From Psychrilyobacter atlanticus DSM 19335 (GTDB lineage: Bacteria; Fusobacteriota; Fusobacteriia; Fusobacteriales; Fusobacteriaceae): a stretch of 64,000 nucleotides of DNA. Positions 1 through 45,059 of this stretch are shown one piece after another; the stretch's first letter is position 1; the number at the start of each line of letters is the position of its first letter. The stretch lies in the NCBI RefSeq assembly GCF_000426625.1, contig NZ_KE384547.1, positions 790,986 through 854,985 on the forward strand, read 5' to 3'. The notes below the pieces were generated by a model. The model was not told the origin of the DNA. It was given only the letters and a program-made list of their open reading frames with translations, and searched no databases. The translations under genes were made by a program, and so were the position numbers.

Positions 1-47
1 CATAGTAAAAGTTATTTCCTTGTCCTCGCAAGAAAAATAAAAACACA

Positions 48-196
48 TTAGGCAGGTCTCCTGACTCAAGTCTTGTCTTACTCCTACTCCTTCCCAGAAA
101 AATCTAGTGGATTGTGTAGTTTCATAACTTTTACAGTGGCGGGACCGTATGGGTATCTAACCCATTTCCCTTTTAATCAAAATGAACCTATAGTGG
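48..196 (-). promoter_or_regulatory. Cobalamin riboswitch (aptamer), reading off the left edge
   Basis: Read on the minus strand this stretch has the ordered conserved blocks of a cobalamin aptamer: AAAAGGGAA, then a GGTTAGATACCC arm, ACGGTCCCGCCACTGT (the most conserved box), GGGAAGGAGTAGGAGTAAG, and the closing AGTCAGGAGACCTGCCT. The controlled gene lies left of position 1 and cannot be seen. An ATG occupies positions 3 to 1 on the minus strand and could be its start, but no ribosome binding site stands at normal distance. The family normally represses B12 uptake or synthesis genes when cobalamin is abundant. Confidence 0.95.
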
Positions 197-411
197 ATAT
201 AATTTCCTATATTTTAACATTTTTTAATGTAAATCACCACCAGAAAATTTTATCAAAAAGTTTATTTTATTTTTAGAAAGTAATGATAAAAAGAGAAAAT
301 AAAACTTAAAAAAACATTAAATTTCCAAAGGTGAAAAAAATAAAGTATAATTAAATTAGTGTATCTTAAAAAATATGGAAAGAAGAAATTTGATTGAATA
401 AGGAGGGTTTT

Positions 412-25448: not shown

Positions 25449-25665
25449 GGGAGGGACTCCTTTTTTAATTTATAATATTACATTAATACTAAGATAGATT
25501 CATAAAAATGTCTAGAAATTCTTTTTAATAATCTCTTATTCCTAACTCTTCACCTTCTTTTAGTGAATTTTAACTACAATTTAACCAGTAATTAACAAAT
25601 AGTACGGAATGTGTGGAAAATACTAGAAAACTATAATTAATTTTTTTTAATAAAGTTGTAATATC

Positions 25666-25694
25666 TTGACATTTTTTTTTATAATTTGTAAACT
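25666..25694 (+). promoter_or_regulatory. Promoter for the BtuB-like receptor
   Basis: TTGACA, 17 bases, then TAAACT, directly upstream of the cobalamin aptamer. A TATAAT at 25680 is only 8 bases from the -35 and was not used. Confidence 0.6.
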
Positions 25695-25711
25695 AAGGAC
25701 GAAGAGAATTA

Positions 25712-25838
25712 AAATAGGGAAACTAGTGCGAATCTAGTACAGCCTTCACTACTGTAGAAGTGGACGAAACCATCATAACCACTGGGTATGATTACCTGGG
25801 AAGGGATGGGAGTAGGAGGAAACTAAGTCAGGATACCT
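25712..25838 (+). promoter_or_regulatory. Cobalamin riboswitch controlling the BtuB-like receptor
   Basis: Conserved aptamer blocks in order: ATAGGGAA, GTGCGAATC, TACAGCC with CACTACTGT, a CCACTGGG arm, GGGAAGGGATGGGAGTAGGA and AAGTCAGGATACC. The aptamer ends about ten bases before the AAAGGGGAG ribosome binding site of the receptor, which points to control of translation. The CCCGC of the core box is diverged here (GCCTTCAC), more than in the copy at 48-196. Confidence 0.92.
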
Positions 25839-25861
25839 AATCTGGAAAAGGGGAGAAAGAG

Positions 25862-28432: not shown

Positions 28433-28528
28433 ATGATTAGATTTACTTGGTGGTGGAAAAGTGATAATTCAACAAATAAAATAGCTTTGACACGTGGACC
28501 AGGTTTAGGTAATAAATCGATCTATTAA
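28433..28528 (+). CDS. trpL: trp operon leader peptide (WWW)
   Basis: A 31-codon frame with GAGGAG ahead of the ATG encodes MIRFTWWWKSDNSTNKIAL and a short tail. Three consecutive tryptophan codons at positions 6-8 are the hallmark of a leader that senses charged tRNA-Trp by ribosome stalling. It lies between a strong promoter and a mutually exclusive hairpin set before trpE. The peptide itself probably has no other job. Confidence 0.93.
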   Translation: MIRFTWWWKSDNSTNKIALTRGPGLGNKSIY

Positions 28529-28591
28529 TTTTTATATATAAAATTTAATTTTTTAAAATTAACGGCCTGTTCACTATGAGCAGGTTTTTTT
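28446..28591 (+). promoter_or_regulatory. trp attenuator with alternative pairings
   Basis: Segment 1, CTTGGT (28446-28451, over the Trp codons), can pair with segment 2, ACCAGG (28498-28503). Segment 2, CAGGTT (28500-28505), can instead pair with segment 3, GGCCTG (28564-28569). Segment 3, CCTGTTC, pairs with GAGCAGG (28578-28584) to form a terminator. A ribosome stalled at the Trp codons would free segment 2 and block the terminator. Confidence 0.85.
28566..28591 (+). terminator. First trp attenuator terminator
   Basis: CCTGTTC/GAGCAGG stem (one G-T), five-base loop, then seven T. Confidence 0.88.
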
Positions 28592-28610
28592 GTTATATTT
28601 TTCTAAGGGA

Positions 28611-28642
28611 AAGCCTATTCATAATGAGTGGGCTTTTTTTTT
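28611..28642 (+). terminator. Second, tandem trp leader terminator
   Basis: AAGCCTATTC pairs with GAGTGGGCTT (two G-T) around a five-base loop and runs into eight or more T. It lies only 20 bases after the first terminator and gives a second stop before trpE. Confidence 0.85.
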
Positions 28643-34265: not shown

Positions 34266-35057
34266 ATGAACAGGATAGAGAAAAAGTTTAAAGAGTTAGG
34301 AGGAAATAAAGCATTGATTACATATATAACAGCTGGAGATCCCGGCTTAGATCAGACAGAAGAGCTTATCTATGCTATGGAAAGGGGAGGAGCTGACATA
34401 GTAGAACTTGGAATACCATATTCGGATCCTATAGCTGATGGGCCTGTTATCCAGGCAGCCGGGAAAAGAGCTCTAGAGAATGGAACCAGGTTATTCAAAG
34501 TACTTGAAGTTGTTAAAAATGTCAGGGAAAAAACAGAGATTCCCTTGGTATTTTTAATCTATTTCAATACTATCTTGAGCCACGGTATAGAAAACTTTAT
34601 AAAAAAATGCCAGGAAGCTGGGGTAGATGGGCTTATAATACCTGACCTTCCCTTGGAGGAAAGGGGCGAAATTAGAGAACTAATAGAAGGGAGCGGGGTA
34701 GATTTAATACCATTAGTTGCTCCTAATTCCAAGGAGAGATTGGGAGAAATAATTAATCAGGGAGGGGGTGGATTTGTCTACTGTATATCATCTTTTGGTG
34801 TAACTGGAGTCAGGGAGAGTTTTGATGTAGATTTAAAAAGTTTCCTGGAAGAAGTGAGGATAGAGACAGATTTACCTTTAGCAGTTGGTTTTGGCATATC
34901 TAGTAGGGAACATGTAGAAAAGATACATAGGATAGCAGATGGAGCTATAGTCGGATCAGCTATTGTGAAATTAGCTCATGAAACTAATGGTGATTCAAAA
35001 GTAATAGAGGGAAAAGTCAGGGAATTAAAAGGCGCTAGAAATGACAGAAGGGTATAG
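34266..35057 (+). CDS. trpA: Tryptophan synthase alpha chain
   Basis: Splits indole-3-glycerol phosphate and passes indole to TrpB. At 263 residues it is typical. VELGIPYSDPIADGPVIQ includes the catalytic glutamate, and DGLIIPDLPLEE the catalytic aspartate. GFGISSREHVEKI binds phosphate. Last gene of the trp operon; no strong terminator follows before the aroF promoter at 35092, so some readthrough into the aro leader is possible. Confidence 0.97.
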   Translation: MNRIEKKFKELGGNKALITYITAGDPGLDQTEELIYAMERGGADIVELGIPYSDPIADGPVIQAAGKRALENGTRLFKVLEVVKNVREKTEIPLVFLIYFNTILSHGIENFIKKCQEAGVDGLIIPDLPLEERGEIRELIEGSGVDLIPLVAPNSKERLGEIINQGGGGFVYCISSFGVTGVRESFDVDLKSFLEEVRIETDLPLAVGFGISSREHVEKIHRIADGAIVGSAIVKLAHETNGDSKVIEGKVRELKGARNDRRV

Positions 35058-35091: not shown

Positions 35092-35120
35092 TTGACAAAG
35101 AGATGCAATAGGAGTACTAT
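35092..35120 (+). promoter_or_regulatory. Promoter of the aroF operon
   Basis: TTGACA, 17 bases, TACTAT. The surrounding TTTGACAAA matches the trp promoter exactly. Confidence 0.75.
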
Positions 35121-35152
35121 TATATCAAATAAATTTTAGGGAGGTAAATCAG

Positions 35153-35209
35153 ATGGTAATGAAAGGCTTTAGATATTGGTATGAATTGAAAAGCAATCAA
35201 ATTTCATAA
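35153..35209 (+). CDS. Aromatic leader peptide (F-R-Y-W-Y) upstream of aroF
   Basis: An 18-codon frame after AGGGAGG encodes MVMKGFRYWYELKSNQIS. One Phe, two Tyr and one Trp codon lie within five positions (6-10), so stalling could report shortage of any of the three aromatic amino acids. It stands between a promoter and alternative hairpins before DAHP synthase, the entry enzyme of the pathway. A start at the second ATG (35159) is also possible. Confidence 0.85.
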   Translation: MVMKGFRYWYELKSNQIS

Positions 35210-35335
35210 CCAACAGGTTTATTAAACTTAAGACAATTTGTCAAAATAAATTTTTTAATTGTAGACCTATATTTTAAATATAGGTCTTTTTATTAGAAAA
35301 ATTGTGAACCTGTTCTATTTGGAACAGGTTTTTTT
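35176..35335 (+). promoter_or_regulatory. aroF attenuator with alternative pairings
   Basis: TTGGT (35176-35180), inside the Tyr-Trp-Tyr codons, can pair with ACCAA (35209-35213). The next bases AACAGGTT (35212-35219) can instead pair perfectly with AACCTGTT (35307-35314), which is the first arm of the terminator at 35307-35335. The layout repeats that of the trp leader. Confidence 0.8.
35263..35292 (+). terminator. First aro leader terminator
   Basis: AGACCTATATTT and AAATATAGGTCT form a perfect 12-bp stem followed by TTTTATT. Confidence 0.8.
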
Positions 35336-35337
35336 AT
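35307..35337 (+). terminator. Second aro leader terminator (attenuator)
   Basis: AACCTGTTC and GAACAGGTT pair perfectly around a six-base loop and run into seven T. Confidence 0.9.
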
Positions 35338-35381
35338 TTTATAAGATAATCTAAAAATCTAGATACATTAGGAGGAAAATG

Positions 35382-36395
35382 ATGATAATTAAACTAAAAA
35401 AAGGTGCCACAGATGATCAAGTGAACCACATTGTAGAAGTATTTGAAAACCTTGGGATGGAGATAAAGGGTATATCAGGAAAGGAATATGGGATTCTAGG
35501 GATAATAGGGGATACATCAAAATTAAGTATAAGAGATATGGAAGCATTAGAAGGAGTAGAAAAGGTGACGAGAATACAAGAACCGTTTAAGAAAGCTAAT
35601 AGAAAGATGCAAGAGGAATGTACAATAATCGATGTAAATGGAATAAAAATTGGTAGAGGGAATTTCACAATTATGTCTGGACCTTGTTCAGTAGAGTCAA
35701 GGGATCAAATTTTAGAAGTAGCAAGGTCAGTAAAGAAATCAGGAGCTCAAATTTTACGTGGTGGAGCATACAAGCCAAGAACTTCTCCATATGCTTTCCA
35801 AGGAATGGAATTAGAGGGATTAGAATTATTAAAGGAAGCGAGAAAAGAAACTGGAATGCCAATAGTAACTGAAATTATGTCGGTAGATCTAGTGGAAAAA
35901 TTTGCTGAAGAGGTAGATATAATCCAAGTAGGAGCTAGAAATATGCAAAACTTTGACCTGTTAAAAGCACTTGGAAAGATAGATAAACCTATTTTATTAA
36001 AAAGAGGGTTATCAGCTACCATCGAAGAATGGTTGATGTCTGCTGAATATATAATGGCAGGAGGAAATGAAAAAGTAATCCTATGTGAAAGAGGAATTAG
36101 AACATATGAAAAATACACAAGAAATACATTGGATCTAAGTGCAGTATTAGCAGTAAAAAAATTAAGTCACCTGCCAGTAATTGTAGATCCAAGTCATGCT
36201 ACAGGGAAAAGATGGATGGTAAAAAAGTTGGCTATGGCAGCAGCAGCAGTAGGAGCAGACGGACTGATGATAGAGGTACACAATGATCCTGAAAATGCAC
36301 TATGTGATGGGGCACAATCACTTAGACCAGAGCAATTTGAAGATTTAGTAAGAGATGTAAGTAAGATATTAGAGGTAGTTGGGAAAAAGATGTAA
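35382..36395 (+). CDS. aroF: DAHP synthase (3-deoxy-7-phosphoheptulonate synthase), AroA-beta type
   Basis: Condenses phosphoenolpyruvate and erythrose 4-phosphate, the first step toward chorismate. 337 residues: an N-terminal ferredoxin-like regulatory domain (about 1-70) precedes a TIM barrel with GPCSVES, RGGAYKPRTSPYAFQG, the KPILLKRG substrate lysine, and VDPSHATGKR. This is the Thermotoga-like short type with feedback control through the N-terminal domain. GGAGG favours the second ATG (35382) over 35379. The leader peptide upstream links expression to aromatic amino acid supply. Confidence 0.96.
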   Translation: MIIKLKKGATDDQVNHIVEVFENLGMEIKGISGKEYGILGIIGDTSKLSIRDMEALEGVEKVTRIQEPFKKANRKMQEECTIIDVNGIKIGRGNFTIMSGPCSVESRDQILEVARSVKKSGAQILRGGAYKPRTSPYAFQGMELEGLELLKEARKETGMPIVTEIMSVDLVEKFAEEVDIIQVGARNMQNFDLLKALGKIDKPILLKRGLSATIEEWLMSAEYIMAGGNEKVILCERGIRTYEKYTRNTLDLSAVLAVKKLSHLPVIVDPSHATGKRWMVKKLAMAAAAVGADGLMIEVHNDPENALCDGAQSLRPEQFEDLVRDVSKILEVVGKKM

Positions 36396-36535: not shown

Positions 36536-37381
36536 ATGAAACAAAAAAAAACATTAAGTATAGTAGGATTAGGGCTTATAGGTGGGTGTTATGCTAAGAC
36601 CTTGAGAGATGAATTTGACACCATTTATGGGATAGATCTAGATGAAAAAGCTCTCTCCTATGCAGAATCTGAAGGGATAATAGATAGGGGATTTATGGAA
36701 TCTAAAAACCCTCTATCTGAAAGTGATTTAGTAGTAATTTGTCTCTATCCCAACTTAGTAGAAGAATTTATAGAAAGAAATATTGATAACTTTAAACCTA
36801 ATGCAGTTATTACAGATGCAGTAGGAGTGAAGGGTGATATGATAGATAGAATAATAGGAAATCTTCCATCAGGTATAGATTTTGTAGGAGCTCATCCTAT
36901 GGCAGGAAGGGAAGTAAAAGGGGTATGGAACTCTAGTGAAGAGATATTTAATGGAGCCAACTTTATAATAACCCCTCATCCCTTGAATAATAATAATAAT
37001 TTAGACCTTATAGAAAAATTGGCATATGAGATGGGATTTAAGAGGGTTTCTCGGATAACTCCTAGAAAACATGATGAAATAATATCTTTTACCAGTCAAT
37101 TAACTCATGCAATAGCAGTCGCTTTAGTTAATTCAGACGAAAAAAACTTTGATACTAATGTATTTATAGGAGATTCATATCGTGACCTTACTCGTATAGC
37201 CATGATAAATGAAGAACTATGGGATAAGTTGTTCATGGGAAACAAGGATAACCTCATAAAAAAAATAGAAAGATTTGAGGAAAGTTTAGATATAATAAAA
37301 AATTCTTTAAAAGAAGGAGATAGTGAATCCCTCAAAGAAGAGTTCAGGAAATCTACCGTAAGGAGAAAGGAGATATCTTAA
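36536..37381 (+). CDS. tyrA: Prephenate dehydrogenase
   Basis: Makes 4-hydroxyphenylpyruvate from prephenate for tyrosine. 281 residues: an N-terminal NAD(P)-binding domain begins IVGLGLIGGCYAKTL, with GIDLDEKA as the acidic turn. The catalytic region is VGAHPMAGREVKGVWNSS with the conserved histidine, and TSQLTHAIAVAL follows. There is no fused chorismate mutase or ACT domain, so feedback by tyrosine must come from elsewhere. aroB starts at the next base after its stop codon. Confidence 0.93.
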   Translation: MKQKKTLSIVGLGLIGGCYAKTLRDEFDTIYGIDLDEKALSYAESEGIIDRGFMESKNPLSESDLVVICLYPNLVEEFIERNIDNFKPNAVITDAVGVKGDMIDRIIGNLPSGIDFVGAHPMAGREVKGVWNSSEEIFNGANFIITPHPLNNNNNLDLIEKLAYEMGFKRVSRITPRKHDEIISFTSQLTHAIAVALVNSDEKNFDTNVFIGDSYRDLTRIAMINEELWDKLFMGNKDNLIKKIERFEESLDIIKNSLKEGDSESLKEEFRKSTVRRKEIS

Positions 37382-38446
37382 ATGGAAAAATTACACATAA
37401 ATTTAGATGAGAAATCCTATGATATTTTTATAGAAAGGGGAATATTTGAAGAGGTAGGAAAATATATATCAAAATTCTATAAAAAGAAAAAAATAGTTGT
37501 AGTGACCGATACAAATGTAGACAGCCTCTACGGAGATATGTTATTAAAAAACTTAGAAAACTCAGGTTATGTACCATCCAAGGTAGTCTTTGATGCAGGG
37601 GAAGAAAATAAAAACTTCGATACCCTAACAAAGGTATATGAAAAAATAATCGATTCAGGAATAAAAAGAGGAGATCTGCTGATAGCTTTTGGTGGTGGAG
37701 TTGTAGGAGATTTAGCAGGGTTTGCAGCATCTACAATATACAGGGGTATGGATTTTATCCAGATACCAACAACACTGTTAGCTCAGGTAGATAGCAGTGT
37801 AGGAGGAAAAGTTGCTGTGGATACGACTAGAGGTAAAAACTTAGTCGGAAGTTTTTACCAGCCTAAGATGGTAATTATCGATCCAGAACTCCTAAAAACC
37901 CTGGATGAAAGGGAAGTAAGGAGTGGAATGGCTGAGGTAATAAAATATGGTGCCATCTATGACAATGAATTTTTTAACTATCTGTTGGAGAAGGAAGATT
38001 TAAAGAGTTCTATGGAAGATATAGAAAAGATTATCAAAAGGTGTTGTGAAATAAAGGCAAAAATAGTAGAGGTAGATGAACTGGATCTTGGGCTACGTAT
38101 GATATTAAACTTTGGTCATACTCTGGGTCATGCTATTGAAAAATATTATGATTATACAAAATACACCCACGGAGAGGCAATTTCTATAGGAATGTATGAG
38201 ATAACCATATTAGGAGAAAAATTAGGAATAACAAAAACAGGTGAATCGAAAAAAATAAAGGAAATTTTAAAAAAATATGAACTTCCTATAGAGGATAAAG
38301 TTAATTTAGGAGATCTCATAGAAATCATGAAAAGCGATAAGAAAAATATATCGGGGATATTAAATTTTATATTCTTATCTGAAATAGGTAAGGTAGAGGT
38401 AAAGAAGGTAGCAGAGGAAGAGATCGGCAATAAATTGCTTAAATAA
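37382..38446 (+). CDS. aroB: 3-dehydroquinate synthase
   Basis: Second shikimate-pathway enzyme, NAD- and zinc-dependent, 354 residues. Typical segments are VFDAGEENKNFDT, AFGGGVVGDLAGFAAS, IPTTLLAQVDSSVGGKV, and the metal ligands in GMAEVIKYG, NFGHTLGHAIE and YTHGEAISIGM. It starts directly after tyrA and is followed by about 95 bases containing a CTGG hairpin copy before aroA. Confidence 0.97.
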   Translation: MEKLHINLDEKSYDIFIERGIFEEVGKYISKFYKKKKIVVVTDTNVDSLYGDMLLKNLENSGYVPSKVVFDAGEENKNFDTLTKVYEKIIDSGIKRGDLLIAFGGGVVGDLAGFAASTIYRGMDFIQIPTTLLAQVDSSVGGKVAVDTTRGKNLVGSFYQPKMVIIDPELLKTLDEREVRSGMAEVIKYGAIYDNEFFNYLLEKEDLKSSMEDIEKIIKRCCEIKAKIVEVDELDLGLRMILNFGHTLGHAIEKYYDYTKYTHGEAISIGMYEITILGEKLGITKTGESKKIKEILKKYELPIEDKVNLGDLIEIMKSDKKNISGILNFIFLSEIGKVEVKKVAEEEIGNKLLK

Positions 38447-38506: not shown

Positions 38507-38540
38507 ATAAACAGTAATTTTGCAGGGTAGGAGGGTAGAA

Positions 38541-39815
38541 ATGAAGGTTAGAATAATTCCAAATGAATTAAAAGGAGATGTGGTGATACCACCATCTAAA
38601 AGTCTAGCACATCGAGCTATAATTGCAGGTTCATTAGCAGAGGGAAAAAGTGTGATAACGAATCTTAATTTTTCAAACGATATAACGGTAACAACTCAGG
38701 CTATGAAAGATTTAGGTGTAGATATAGAAGTGTTTGAAGATTATGAAGTTATTACAGGATCTAAAAATCTAAAGAGGGTAAATAGTACTATAAATTGCGG
38801 GGAATCAGGATCTACAATCAGGTTTATGATACCTATATCTCTGTTAGCAGATGGGGAAGTAACATTTGTAGGAGAGGGAAGATTAACTACCAGACCACTT
38901 AATGTATTCCATGAGATTTTTGATAAACAGGGAATAGAATATAGTCGAGGTGTAGAAGAACTTCCATTAACTATTGATGGGAAACTAAAACCAGGAAAAT
39001 TTGAGGTAAGGGGAGATATAAGCTCACAATTTATAACCGGACTCCTCTATACATTACCAAAATTAGATGGTGATTCTGAAATAATTATAACTACTAATTT
39101 AGAATCTAAAGGATATATAGACCTAACTTTAGATATTTTAGACAGGTTCGGCGTTAAAATAATCAATGAAAATTATGAAAGATTTGTTGTTCCTGGAAAC
39201 CAAGGTTATAAAGCACATGATTATAGGGTCGAGGGAGATTTTTCCCAGGTAGCTTTTTGGCTGGTAGCTGGATTTTTAAATGATGGTATCAATTGTCTTG
39301 GAATGAATCCTGATTCATTGCAAGGGGATAGAGAAATAATAAAAATATTGAAAGATATGGGTGGCGACCTAAGAATAGATAAAGATATAATAAGTATAGC
39401 AGGGAAACAATCGATAGGTTCTACAATTGACTTGAGTCAATGTCCGGATTTAGGGCCTATAGTAACAGTCTTAGCCAGCTTAAGTGAGGGAACGACTAGG
39501 ATAATTAATGCTGGAAGGTTGAGGATAAAAGAATCTGATAGGATAACTTCTATGACAACAGAACTTAATAAATTAGGAGCTAATATAGCAGAAACTGAAA
39601 ATGGAATGATCATAGAAGGGGTGAAAAATCTAAAAGGTGGAGTAGAAGTAGATGCCTGGAACGATCACAGGGTTGCCATGGCACTGGCAGTAGCCAGCAG
39701 CAGATGTGATGAACCTATTATCCTTACAGGAGCAAATTCAGTAAAGAAATCATATCCAAATTTTTGGAAAGATTTTGAAAAATTAAGTGGGAAGATACAA
39801 ATAATAGAGGAATAA
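38541..39815 (+). CDS. aroA: EPSP synthase (3-phosphoshikimate 1-carboxyvinyltransferase)
   Basis: Transfers enolpyruvate to shikimate 3-phosphate. 424 residues, normal. PPSKSLAHRAIIAGSLAEG opens the family signature. GESGSTIRFMIPISLL and RLTTRPLN lie where the PEP and shikimate sites are, and RIKESDRITSM and DAWNDHRVAMALAVA complete the pattern. ATG 38541 was chosen because TAGGAGGG precedes it; a TTG at 38520 is in frame but upstream of that site. Confidence 0.96.
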   Translation: MKVRIIPNELKGDVVIPPSKSLAHRAIIAGSLAEGKSVITNLNFSNDITVTTQAMKDLGVDIEVFEDYEVITGSKNLKRVNSTINCGESGSTIRFMIPISLLADGEVTFVGEGRLTTRPLNVFHEIFDKQGIEYSRGVEELPLTIDGKLKPGKFEVRGDISSQFITGLLYTLPKLDGDSEIIITTNLESKGYIDLTLDILDRFGVKIINENYERFVVPGNQGYKAHDYRVEGDFSQVAFWLVAGFLNDGINCLGMNPDSLQGDREIIKILKDMGGDLRIDKDIISIAGKQSIGSTIDLSQCPDLGPIVTVLASLSEGTTRIINAGRLRIKESDRITSMTTELNKLGANIAETENGMIIEGVKNLKGGVEVDAWNDHRVAMALAVASSRCDEPIILTGANSVKKSYPNFWKDFEKLSGKIQIIEE

Positions 39816-39979: not shown

Positions 39980-41059
39980 ATGGGTTCAACTTGGGGAAAA
40001 AATATAAAATTATCGTTGTTTGGGGAATCTCACGGTGTAGGAATAGGAATTACTATTGATGGGTTACCAGCAGGGGTGGAGTTAGATCTAGATGCAATAA
40101 AGTTAGAGATGCAAAGACGTGCCACAGGTAAGAATGAACTTACAACTGCCAGGAAAGAAGCGGATACTTTTGAAATTTTAAGTGGATACTTTAATGGATA
40201 TACTACAGGAGCACCTCTTAGTATACTGATTAGAAATAGGGACCAGCAATCAAGGGATTACAGTAAGATAAAGGATATAGCCAGACCAGCACATGCTGAC
40301 TATACTGGATACAAAAGGTATGATGGGTATAATGATTACCGTGGAGGAGGCCATTTTTCAGGGAGATTAACGGCTCCAATTGTATTTGCAGGTGCAGTAG
40401 CAAAGCAAATATTGATGGATAAAGGAATTTATATAGGAACCCATATAAAGAGTATAAAAAATCTCCAAGACAGGGATTTTTCTGAAAGTGATCTAAATAT
40501 AGAAGTTTTTAAAAAATTAGCTGAGAAGCAACTTCCATTTTTAGATGAAAATTTAGAAAAACTAAGTCGTGAAAAGATCCTTCGTGCAAAGAGTGAATGT
40601 GATTCTCTAGGAGGGGTAATAGAGTGCTCTATTATAGGTATGGAACCTGGAGTAGGGAACCCATTTTTTAATTCAATTGAAAGTCAGTTGGCCGGGTTGA
40701 TGTATTCTATCCCCGCTGTAAAAGGTGTAGAATTTGGAGCGGGATTTGGAATAACTGATCTATTTGGAAGTGAAGCTAATGATGATATCTATATAGACGG
40801 TGATAGGGTAAAAACTAAAACTAATAATAATGGAGGAGTTTTAGGTGGGATTACCAATGGAATGCCTATAAACTTTAAAGTGGCTATAAAACCAACTCCT
40901 TCTATATCAAAGGCTCAAGAAACTATAAATATGAAAACTAATGAGGAAACAGAATTTAAGATTGTAGGAAGACACGATCCATGTATAGTTCCTAGAGCTT
41001 TAGTGGTAGTAGAAGCAATGGCAGCCATAGGAATCTTGGATTTTTGGGTGGTATCTTAG
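39980..41059 (+). CDS. aroC: Chorismate synthase
   Basis: Last step to chorismate, flavin-dependent, 359 residues. Signatures: LFGESHGVGIGITIDGLPAG with the catalytic histidine, RRATGKNELTTAR, DYRGGGHFSGRLTAPIV, and SIPAVKGVEFGAGF. The C-terminal RHDPCIVPRALVVVEAM segment is complete. AAGGTGAG precedes the start. pheA begins just after its stop. Confidence 0.97.
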   Translation: MGSTWGKNIKLSLFGESHGVGIGITIDGLPAGVELDLDAIKLEMQRRATGKNELTTARKEADTFEILSGYFNGYTTGAPLSILIRNRDQQSRDYSKIKDIARPAHADYTGYKRYDGYNDYRGGGHFSGRLTAPIVFAGAVAKQILMDKGIYIGTHIKSIKNLQDRDFSESDLNIEVFKKLAEKQLPFLDENLEKLSREKILRAKSECDSLGGVIECSIIGMEPGVGNPFFNSIESQLAGLMYSIPAVKGVEFGAGFGITDLFGSEANDDIYIDGDRVKTKTNNNGGVLGGITNGMPINFKVAIKPTPSISKAQETINMKTNEETEFKIVGRHDPCIVPRALVVVEAMAAIGILDFWVVS

Positions 41060-41069
41060 GATGGTGAAA

Positions 41070-42140
41070 ATGAAAAAATTAGATCAATTGAGGATTGAGA
41101 TAGATAAAATAGACCAAGAGATGGCAGAATTATTTGTAAAAAGAATGAAAGTAGTAGAAGGAATTGCAAAATATAAGCAGAGCACGGGGACGGAAGTATT
41201 AGATAGAGATAGAGAAAAAGTAGTGATTAAGGAAAATTCCGAGAGGGTTACAGATGAAAAATTAAAAAAATATTATGTTGAATTTTTAGAAAGTAATATG
41301 AAGATATCCAGAAGTTTTCAAAAATCTATCTTAGGGTTAGATAAGGTGGTAGGATACCAGGGGATACCAGGATCATTTAGTTATTTGGCATTAAAAACTA
41401 AATATAAAGACGAAGTTTTAAACTCCTATCAAAATTTTGAAGATGTATTTACAGCATTAAAAAATAAGGAGATAGAGGTAGGAGTACTCCCTATTGAGAA
41501 CTCATATACAGGGGATATCACCGATAACTTTGATCTTATAAAAAAATATAATGCCTACATAATAGATATTATAGAGTTAAAAATAGATCATAATTTATTG
41601 GGAATAAAGGGGTCAAAATTAAGCAATATAAAGGAGATATATTCCCATATTCAAGGATTTAAGCAATCCCAGACTTTTTTAAAGGGAAGAGGTTATAAGG
41701 AAATACCATATTACAATACAGCTATAAGTGCAAAATATGTGAGTGAAATGGAAGATATAACTAAAGGTGCTATAGGAAGTGCTGAAACGGCTAAGATCTA
41801 TAATTTGGATATATTGGCAAAGAACATCAATACCCATGAAGATAATACAACTAAATTTATGGTTATTGGAAATCAATTGATTGTAAATAAAGATCATAAC
41901 AGGATCATGGCAGCATTTTCTACATATAATAAATCAGGGGATCTATCTGACGTTTTAGGAAAATTCAGCAAATATGGTATCAATATGTTAAGTATAAAAT
42001 CAAGACCTCTTAAAGATTCTCCCTGGGAATATATCTTTTTTGTGGAATTAGAAGGGAACTATGAGACTTTGAAACCTGCTATAGAAAAGATTGAGAAAAA
42101 AAGTAAATATTTTGAGGTGATTGGCAGTTATGAAAAATAA
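41070..42140 (+). CDS. pheA: Bifunctional chorismate mutase / prephenate dehydratase (P-protein)
   Basis: Makes phenylpyruvate from chorismate. The N-terminal AroQ mutase (about residues 1-85) has LDQLRIEIDKIDQEMAELF and the arginine in VLDRDREK. The prephenate dehydratase domain starts GYQGIPGSFSYLA and contains GVLPIENSYTGDI and HEDNTTKFMVIG. A C-terminal ACT domain (YNKSGDLSDVLGKFSKYGIN, then SIKSRPLKDSPWEYIFFVEL) is the phenylalanine feedback site. Starts at 41061 (ATG) and 41064 (GTG) are also in frame. aroE overlaps its end by 11 bases. Confidence 0.96.
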   Translation: MKKLDQLRIEIDKIDQEMAELFVKRMKVVEGIAKYKQSTGTEVLDRDREKVVIKENSERVTDEKLKKYYVEFLESNMKISRSFQKSILGLDKVVGYQGIPGSFSYLALKTKYKDEVLNSYQNFEDVFTALKNKEIEVGVLPIENSYTGDITDNFDLIKKYNAYIIDIIELKIDHNLLGIKGSKLSNIKEIYSHIQGFKQSQTFLKGRGYKEIPYYNTAISAKYVSEMEDITKGAIGSAETAKIYNLDILAKNINTHEDNTTKFMVIGNQLIVNKDHNRIMAAFSTYNKSGDLSDVLGKFSKYGINMLSIKSRPLKDSPWEYIFFVELEGNYETLKPAIEKIEKKSKYFEVIGSYEK

Positions 42141-42945
42141 ATATGCTTTAATAGGAAAGAAATTAGGACATAGTTACTCACCTATAATTCATAATATGAT
42201 CTTTGAAAGATTTCAGATAGCTGGAGAATATTCATTGATAGAGGTGCCACGAAATAATATCTTAGAAGTAGTGAAAAAATTAAAATCTGAGGAACTATCT
42301 GGTATAAATATAACTATCCCCTATAAAACAGATATTATAAAATATTTAGATGAAGTATCTGAAGAAGCTGAACAAATAGGAGCAGTTAATACTGTCATTT
42401 CTAAGGGCGGTAAGTTAATCGGGTACAATACAGATTACTATGGATTCAAGATGATAATAACTAAGTTAAAATTAGAAATAAAAAATAAAAAAAACTTTAT
42501 CTGTGGCGCTGGAGGTTCAGCCAGAGCTGTTATTAAATGTTTAGAAGATCTAGGTGGAGAAAATTATTTGGTTACCAGAGATACAGAAAAAGCCAGGATA
42601 AATTTTAAAAGTTTTCAAAATTTAAATATTATTTCTTACAATGAACTACAGTCTATATCTGACAAGAATTTAATAGTTAATTGCACCCCCTGTGGAATGT
42701 ATCCCAATATAGAATGCAGTATATTGGATGAAGAGGAAAAAAAAGAATACCAGGCAGGGATAGACCTTATCTATAACCCTCAGAAAACTAAGTTCTTAGA
42801 GGGATTTAAAATAGATGAAAACGGTCTACTGATGCTGGTAGGACAGGCTGTAAAAGCAGAGGAAATCTGGCAGGAAAGAGATATGTCGGAAGACGACATA
42901 CAAGAAATCTATGAAAAAATAAAGGAATTAATCTATAAGAAATAA
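42130..42945 (+). CDS. aroE: Shikimate dehydrogenase
   Basis: NADP-dependent reduction of dehydroshikimate, 271 residues. The substrate domain holds GHSYSPIIHNMIF and the catalytic lysine in NITIPYKTDI; the nucleotide domain holds CGAGGSARAVIKCLEDLG and VNCTPCGMYP. ATG 42130 is chosen since GAGGTGA lies nine bases ahead, whereas the TTG at 42121 touches that site. It lies out of pathway order, after pheA. Confidence 0.95.
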   Translation: MKNKYALIGKKLGHSYSPIIHNMIFERFQIAGEYSLIEVPRNNILEVVKKLKSEELSGINITIPYKTDIIKYLDEVSEEAEQIGAVNTVISKGGKLIGYNTDYYGFKMIITKLKLEIKNKKNFICGAGGSARAVIKCLEDLGGENYLVTRDTEKARINFKSFQNLNIISYNELQSISDKNLIVNCTPCGMYPNIECSILDEEEKKEYQAGIDLIYNPQKTKFLEGFKIDENGLLMLVGQAVKAEEIWQERDMSEDDIQEIYEKIKELIYKK

Positions 42946-42959
42946 AAAAGGGGGAGAAA

Positions 42960-44195
42960 ATGGGAATATTAGCCAAAAGGTCGAAAGATAAAAATATTAT
43001 AGATACGGTATTTACAATGGTAAAAAAAGCCAGTGATGCTAAAGTTAAGTATGGAGAAGATAATGTAATAGATGTAACAATAGGAGCTCTTTGTGATGAA
43101 AATGGTAAATTTACCATTTTTGATTCTGTAAGTGAAGTATATAAAAATTTGGATAAGATGGACATAGCGCCCTATGCAGAATCATTTATTGGAAACAATG
43201 ACTATCTGAGAGAAATAAAGTCGTGGGTATTAGGGAAACATGAAGAGAAATTCAGTGTAGGAGCTATAGCTACACCTGGGGGATCTGGATCTGTGAGTTC
43301 TACCCTAAAAAATATATTGGACCCGGAAGAAACGCTGCTTATTCCAAATATCGGTTGGGGACCCTATAAGATAATGGCAAAGGAACATGATTTAAAAATA
43401 GAAACCTATGAATTATTCAATGAAAAAGATGAGTTTAATATTGAGAGTTTTAGAAAAAAATCATCTGAGATAATGAAATCTCAGGGGAAAGTGTTGGCTA
43501 TAATAAATGATCCATGTCATAATCCTACAGGTTATTCTATGAGTGGATCTGAATGGGAGAGTATTGTAGAAGTTATGAATGATCTATCTGAAGATGGAAA
43601 CTATATCCTTTTAAACGATATTGCTTATATAGACTATGCTGTAAAAGGATATGAGGAAAGCCGTAAATATATGGAGCGTTTTACAGATCTATCTCCTAAA
43701 AATTTGGTTGTATTCTCATTTAGCTGCTCTAAAACACTTACTAAATATGGACTTCGTGTAGGGGGAAGTGTATTTATCTCAAATGAAGAGAAAAATGTAG
43801 ATGAGTATATGAGAGCTAATGAGTTTACATGTCGTGGGATATGGTCAAATGTTCCCAAGGGTGGAATGAAATTATTTTCAACTATTCAAAGTGACGAAAT
43901 CTTAAGAGATAAATTAACAAAGGAAAGAGATAGTTATGTAAAACTATTGGAGAAAAGATCTAAGATATTTTTAGAGGAAGCTTATGAAGCTGGTTTAGAA
44001 GTTTATCCATATAAAGAAGGGTTTTTCATTACGTTAAAGATTGAGGATAAAAAAATTAGTGAAAGTTTGGAAAAACTGAACCGGGAAAATATATATCCAA
44101 TTCAGGTAGCTCATGGGATAAGGATTGCAATATGCGGAAGTCCCAGTAAAAAATTAGAAGGATTGGCTAAAAAAATTAAAAAAATTATAGGTTAA
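42960..44195 (+). CDS. Class I/II PLP aminotransferase, probable aromatic aminotransferase
   Basis: 411 residues with the fold-type I pattern: INDPCHNPTGYSMS (PLP-contacting asparagine), LLNDIAYIDYAV (aspartate to the pyridine nitrogen), SFSCSKTLTKYGLRVGG (Schiff-base lysine) and GIRIAICG near the end (substrate carboxylate arginine). Its place after pheA, tyrA and aroE makes the last transamination to phenylalanine and tyrosine the natural job. Aspartate-like specificity cannot be excluded from sequence. It ends at a perfect shared terminator. Confidence 0.88.
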   Translation: MGILAKRSKDKNIIDTVFTMVKKASDAKVKYGEDNVIDVTIGALCDENGKFTIFDSVSEVYKNLDKMDIAPYAESFIGNNDYLREIKSWVLGKHEEKFSVGAIATPGGSGSVSSTLKNILDPEETLLIPNIGWGPYKIMAKEHDLKIETYELFNEKDEFNIESFRKKSSEIMKSQGKVLAIINDPCHNPTGYSMSGSEWESIVEVMNDLSEDGNYILLNDIAYIDYAVKGYEESRKYMERFTDLSPKNLVVFSFSCSKTLTKYGLRVGGSVFISNEEKNVDEYMRANEFTCRGIWSNVPKGGMKLFSTIQSDEILRDKLTKERDSYVKLLEKRSKIFLEEAYEAGLEVYPYKEGFFITLKIEDKKISESLEKLNRENIYPIQVAHGIRIAICGSPSKKLEGLAKKIKKIIG

Positions 44196-44813: not shown

Positions 44814-44889
44814 AATTAAACCTCCAAAAATGTTTTAAACACCTCATATCGAGTGAAATTATTAAGAAAATATTGATCTTAAAATTACA

Positions 44890-44952
44890 CTCATAGTTAG
44901 CTATTTACGGCAGCTAGTAGAAACTTTCTTCCTTATTAAGAAAATATATGAG
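44890..44952 (-). promoter_or_regulatory. Purine (guanine-type) riboswitch upstream of xpt
   Basis: On the minus strand the three-way-junction pattern is complete: P1 arms CTCATA and TATGAG, the J1/2 TATATT, GTTTCTAC after P2, the CTAGC-TGCCGTAAAT-AGCTA arm and the closing AACTATGAG. The discriminating base before TATG is C, which selects guanine or hypoxanthine over adenine. No simple terminator is obvious between the aptamer and the xpt start about 75 bases on, so the expression platform is unresolved. Confidence 0.93.
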
Positions 44953-45059
44953 AATTGATTTTATCTATATTACCACAAGATTCTCAAAAAAACAAGGATT
45001 TGGAAAATAAAGGATAAAAAAATTAGCTGACCTAGGTCAGCTAATAATAAGAATTCTAA

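Follow-up and report, generated by a model that had tools for sequence, protein, structure and literature searches.

The window analysed here, a 64,000-nt stretch of Psychrilyobacter atlanticus DNA, contains a short intergenic region between trpA (ending at 35057) and a DAHP synthase gene (35379–36395), which raises the question of whether one small leader can report all three aromatic amino acids to the pathway that makes them. Feedback control at the entry to aromatic biosynthesis is usually split among isozymes, repressors or leaders that respond to a single amino acid, and amino acid control in Clostridia and Fusobacteriaceae is usually credited to T-boxes. Based on its sequence and predicted folding, we infer that this region serves in vivo as a ribosome-mediated transcription attenuator of the aro operon (the aro leader), with a probability of roughly 0.85. 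All features are on the forward strand (+) unless stated otherwise.

The gene behind the leader is a DAHP synthase, as the original prediction held, and belongs to type I beta, with a ferredoxin-like regulatory domain. That prediction had overlooked the whole of a near-complete aro operon headed by this gene: tyrA (prephenate dehydrogenase, 36536–37381), aroB (37382–38446), aroA (38538–39815), aroC (39980–41059), pheA (chorismate mutase/prephenate dehydratase, 41061–42140), aroE (42130–42945) and an aminotransferase that is probably aromatic (42960–44195; best match PRK09257, below the cut-off). The tyrA and pheA assignments are below equivalog cut-offs and consistent with their families. The enzyme is the sole DAHP synthase found in the genome, with no match there to the type II or AroFGH-type enzymes; the only other sequence match (32% identical) is probably the related KDO8P synthase, a family that the window enzyme also matches weakly.

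A sigma-70-like promoter (TTGACA-17-TACTAT, 35092–35120), of which the -35 element is conserved in the genus, probably drives the operon. It precedes a Shine-Dalgarno site (AGGGAGGT, 35138–35145) and an 18-codon open reading frame (MVMKGFRYWYELKSNQIS, 35153–35209) that begins with ATG at 35153 and ends with TAA at 35207–35209. The Phe, Tyr, Trp and Tyr codons proposed to lie within five positions are read directly from the sequence as F6, Y8, W9 and Y10 (control codons F6-R7-Y8-W9-Y10, 35168–35182). Aromatic density alone is insufficient evidence for a leader, because 16 of 400 Shine-Dalgarno-preceded short open reading frames in the 64-kb window also have four F/Y/W in five codons; position, structure and conservation carry the case.

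Conservation in relatives, named at the outset as a check, holds for the genus. Seven further genomes were compared, six with readable upstream DNA (in the seventh, the contig starts inside the gene), and all six retain the frame, the FxYWY pattern, the Shine-Dalgarno site and both of the terminators described below. Five of them encode the same 18 residues, with synonymous changes at V2, K4, S14 and N15. The most divergent relative (G001, locus L130) encodes the peptide MGMNSFYYWYELKSNQIS, with control codons FYYWY. Between this genome and P. atlanticus, 15/27 four-fold sites of the DAHP synthase gene are identical, compared with 24/25 positions of the first terminator, 8/8 of its U-tract, 15/16 of the stop codon plus the adjoining antiterminator strand, and 23/24 of codons 11–18. 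Fusobacteriaceae bacterium UBA2433 has the same leader ahead of an enzyme 93% identical to the window DAHP synthase.

The RNA can be divided into six strands. Codons 8–18 (strand 1, UUGGUAUGAAUUG) pair with the stop-codon region (strand 2) in a 14-bp hairpin (35176–35213; −8.5 kcal/mol, z −2.55), and strand 2 (ACCAACAGGUUUAU, 35209–35222), directly after the stop codon of the leader, is the antiterminator strand. Two hairpins follow: T1 (strands 3:4, 35263–35287; −11.9 kcal/mol, z −4.96), with a U-tract from 35288, and T2 (strands 5:6, 35306–35331; −14.2 kcal/mol, z −5.02). Three terminator-like sites were found on both strands, against 0.1 expected. Strand 2 can pair with the 5′ side of either terminator: with that of T1 (GUAGACCU, 35261–35268) over 8 bp (−8.4 kcal/mol) and with that of T2 (GUGAACCUGUU, 35304–35314) over 11 bp (−13.4 kcal/mol). 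Against dinucleotide shuffles the T2 pairing stands out (p 0.004–0.006); the T1 pairing is only suggestive (p 0.03–0.07) and is shorter (6 bp) in L130.

These structures retain much of the anatomy first proposed. The pairing of AACAGGTT (35212–35219) with AACCTGTT (35307–35314) is present and forms the core of the 11-bp duplex that exceeds the shuffles; that of TTGGT (35176–35180) with ACCAA (35209–35213) is also present, as part of the 14-bp hairpin, but by itself does not exceed them (p 0.16). The single terminator then recognized is T2, which is real, whereas T1 and the dual use of strand 2 were missed. For the aro leader, a 4:5 cascade, with T2 taken by the 3′ arm released from T1, was also considered and set aside as weak (−6.1 kcal/mol).

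For the predicted switch, the RNA was folded with everything masked up to the leading edge of the ribosome (assumed to be 13 nt beyond the first base of the A-site codon) and with only the 5′ arm of a given terminator emerged. With the ribosome at F6, Y8, W9 or Y10, strand 2 pairs with the T1 arm with a probability of 0.96 and with the T2 arm with a probability of 0.97; with the ribosome at the stop codon, both values are 0. At equilibrium with T2 complete, the terminators win for every ribosome position, and the switch must therefore be kinetic; a kinetic decision is also supposed for classical attenuators. In the absence of a ribosome, hairpin 1:2 does not clearly hold strand 2.

In the mechanism that we propose, transcription would start just past 35120 and a ribosome would translate the 18-codon leader. 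When charged Phe, Tyr or Trp tRNA is scarce, the ribosome would stall at codons 6–10 and cover strand 1 (UUGGU), leaving strand 2 free to pair in turn with the two 5′ arms as the RNA emerges: that of T1 first (8 bp), and that of T2 (11 bp) after polymerase has moved beyond T1; neither terminator would fire and the operon would be transcribed. When all three amino acids are plentiful, the ribosome would reach the stop codon and cover strand 2, allowing T1 and T2 to form. The region has the parts that such an attenuator needs: a Shine-Dalgarno-preceded frame with control codons, conserved as a frame; two intrinsic terminators between the leader and the first gene; an antiterminator exclusive with the terminator; a strand 1 that overlaps the control codons; and a strand 2 that a ribosome standing at the stop codon would cover. 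The attenuation originally placed ahead of DAHP synthase is thus well supported in its ribosome-mediated form by the conserved frame, the above-chance antiterminator and the predicted switching at aromatic codons, both in this leader and across its wider family.

T1 is probably a working terminator. A competing reading, which we regard as a serious contender although the less probable one, is that T1, instead of terminating transcription, compacts the RNA as a hairpin and places strand 2 near T2, leaving T2 alone under control. This would fit the build of T1 (a stem with three GC pairs, and a U-tract that is short and interrupted by an A) and its position within the strand 2:T2 loop, where it can coexist with that pairing. 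However, conservation is highest in T1 and its U-tract (24/25 and 8/8 in L130, as above), and the neighboring trp leader likewise has two successive terminators.

The next question is which amino acids the aro leader senses. Codons for several end products (F6, Y8, W9, Y10) lie in the stall region, and sensing of all three of Phe, Tyr and Trp is plausible because all four codons lie where a stall would free strand 2 and because there is a single DAHP synthase; judging from the sequence, we consider it rather probable that all three are sensed. Signals from all three end products would then converge on a single gene copy through one 18-codon leader. These codons supply only one or two per aromatic amino acid, and the response to each is proposed on their placement.

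Alternatively, the attenuator may sense mainly Tyr and Phe, the Trp codon having been kept since UGG gives strand 1 its GG; we find this unlikely, though not negligibly so, and the Trp codon may be partly structural. The UUGGU:ACCAA pairing does require UGG, and in the densest segment of most related leaders, F and Y are present but W is absent (34/52, with all three of F/Y/W in 14/52). Moreover, there are genomes with no trpB match above the cut-off whose leaders contain W codons, and genomes with trpB whose leaders lack them; overall, no link was detected among relatives between a Trp codon in the leader and Trp biosynthesis as judged by a trpB match. In Clostridium the W codon lies inside a DNA-conserved block (TTCTGGGGC). 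Against this, W9 does not vary within the genus, Trp codons turn up again in two other genera whose leader RNAs are unrelated in sequence, and, whatever the reason for its preservation, a UGG at this position is expected to delay the ribosome when Trp is short.

Related loci were surveyed for a Shine-Dalgarno-preceded frame in which five or more of ten codons are F/Y/W. Such leaders precede 50 of 99 non-redundant DAHP synthase loci (Fusobacteriaceae, Clostridia and others) and occur in 10 of 549 background regions, taken from upstream of other genes of these loci (Fisher p 9e-37, optimistic like the other survey p-values, as the loci are mutually related and not phylogenetically independent). 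With four F/Y/W, the window leader is below this count and is therefore supported by conservation and not by number. For the 43 leaders with a terminator, sequestration of the terminator 5′ arm with the ribosome at the aromatic codons, minus that at the stop codon, was 0.33 compared with 0.11 for shuffles (Wilcoxon p 8e-7); individually, 13/43 were below 0.05, and the window leader gave 0.024. A generic test of whether any strand pairs with the terminator arm was weak across the family (10/43 at p < 0.05) because architectures differ, which makes the ribosome-position test the more telling one. Two other Fusobacteriaceae genera have leaders FWYFYYF and WYFYYYF with a different RNA sequence and architecture, namely a five-strand switch comprising a stop-codon strand, its partner and a third strand able to take the terminator arm; on folding, these flip where the aromatic codon run ends. 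Among further Fusobacteriaceae, some have F/Y leaders, and others, as well as family f4, have none. No Rfam family was found at the leader positions in the loci scanned.

Clostridium loci including L034, L037, L041, L050 and L052 share a block conserved at the DNA level (TTC TGG GGC TTT ... AGC GCT GGC) inside the aromatic run, which suggests a possible RNA element on top of the codons. Two genomes (G020 and G031) each encode two DAHP synthases that are about equally similar to that of the window; one has the WYFYYYF leader, and the other (L111, L112) lacks such a leader or an Rfam element, providing a natural control pair.

Other modes of action for the aro leader fare poorly. Arrest of the ribosome by the nascent peptide upon sensing a free aromatic amino acid, in the manner of TnaC with Trp, would account for the strong conservation of the peptide in the genus, but what is conserved outside the aromatic codons falls where the RNA pairs (hairpin 1:2), and the peptides differ wholly between genera while the aromatic codons persist; we consider this very improbable. 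Least probable of all is a riboswitch, T-box or protein-binding leader with an incidental reading frame: T-boxes do control such genes in many Firmicutes, but aromatic codons persist in relatives and Rfam models (Trp_leader, Phe_leader, T-box) gave no score above the gathering threshold at the leader and nothing at relaxed thresholds, other weak matches being at chance level only.

The trp operon of the same window has its own leader (MIRFTWWWKSDNSTNKIALTRGPGLGNKSIY, 28433–28635), with two consecutive terminators. Pairing between the 3′ arm of the upstream terminator and the 5′ arm of the downstream one is possible (4:5, −11 kcal/mol), so both could be disarmed in a cascade of 2:3 and 4:5 pairing; the tandem terminators are retained in G001, where the leader is MIRLTWWRSNKI. 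Two cobalamin riboswitches and one purine riboswitch also lie in the window (34–206, minus strand; 25665–25858, plus strand; 44874–44971, minus strand), and a T-box-like element is located elsewhere in the genome (G000:C3:1020955–1021128, locus L164; 73 bits, against a gathering threshold of 93).

Taken as a whole, the proposal is that one leader reports Phe, Tyr and Trp through one strand that disarms two terminators in turn, and also that it belongs to a large undescribed set of aromatic-codon attenuators that, in Fusobacteriaceae, Clostridia and Negativicutes, precede genes for type I beta DAHP synthases; for both parts to hold together is a possibility that we put a little short of even. 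From the survey, it appears that DAHP synthase is commonly under leader-peptide attenuation in Clostridia and Fusobacteriaceae, and a ready list of candidate leaders for testing is now available. In the literature found, there were no F-Y-W leaders, no tandem terminators disarmed by one strand and no such family in Clostridia or Fusobacteriaceae; a 2010 survey (Lopatovskaya, Seliverstov, and Lyubetsky), which may mention some of these leaders, is outside this comparison. A three-amino-acid leader with two stacked terminators and relatives in Clostridia therefore appears to be undescribed.

Leader-peptide attenuation itself is a textbook principle, and the ilvGMEDA leader is multivalent. The enterobacterial trpL and pheL leaders (Rfam Trp_leader and Phe_leader) resemble the aro leader in having a short peptide with control codons, an antiterminator opposed to a terminator, strand 1 in the codons and strand 2 at the stop codon; unlike the aro leader, which has no Rfam match, each responds to one amino acid and has one terminator. 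The trp attenuator of the same window shares a leader peptide (WWW), two successive terminators and a similar strand 2 (CCAGGUUUA), but there the most favorable partner for disarming T2 is the 3′ arm released from T1, not strand 2. Branched-chain leaders such as those of ilvB and Corynebacterium ilvBNC (PMC10272879), and the ilvGMEDA leader (named in PMC1183508), combine codons for several end products of one shared pathway in a single peptide, as the aro leader does, although for branched-chain and not aromatic amino acids. For aroF of E. coli and Shewanella, attenuation answering Tyr-tRNA has been proposed (Camakaris, 1980, as cited in PMC8632094 and PMC2659441); as cited there, it likewise concerns a DAHP synthase gene, but of a Tyr-sensitive isozyme and with a single amino acid. 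The closest prior description found, compared by description, is the uORFC-13-1 motif upstream of aroF in Acholeplasma, in which an upstream reading frame with one or more Phe codons precedes a terminator ahead of DAHP synthase, as in the aro leader (PMC8632094); the Acholeplasma laidlawii locus in our survey had no Rfam match. As described, that motif comprises 24 representatives from Acholeplasma and environmental sequences only and concerns Phe, without Tyr or Trp sensing or tandem terminators, which sets it apart from the aro leader.
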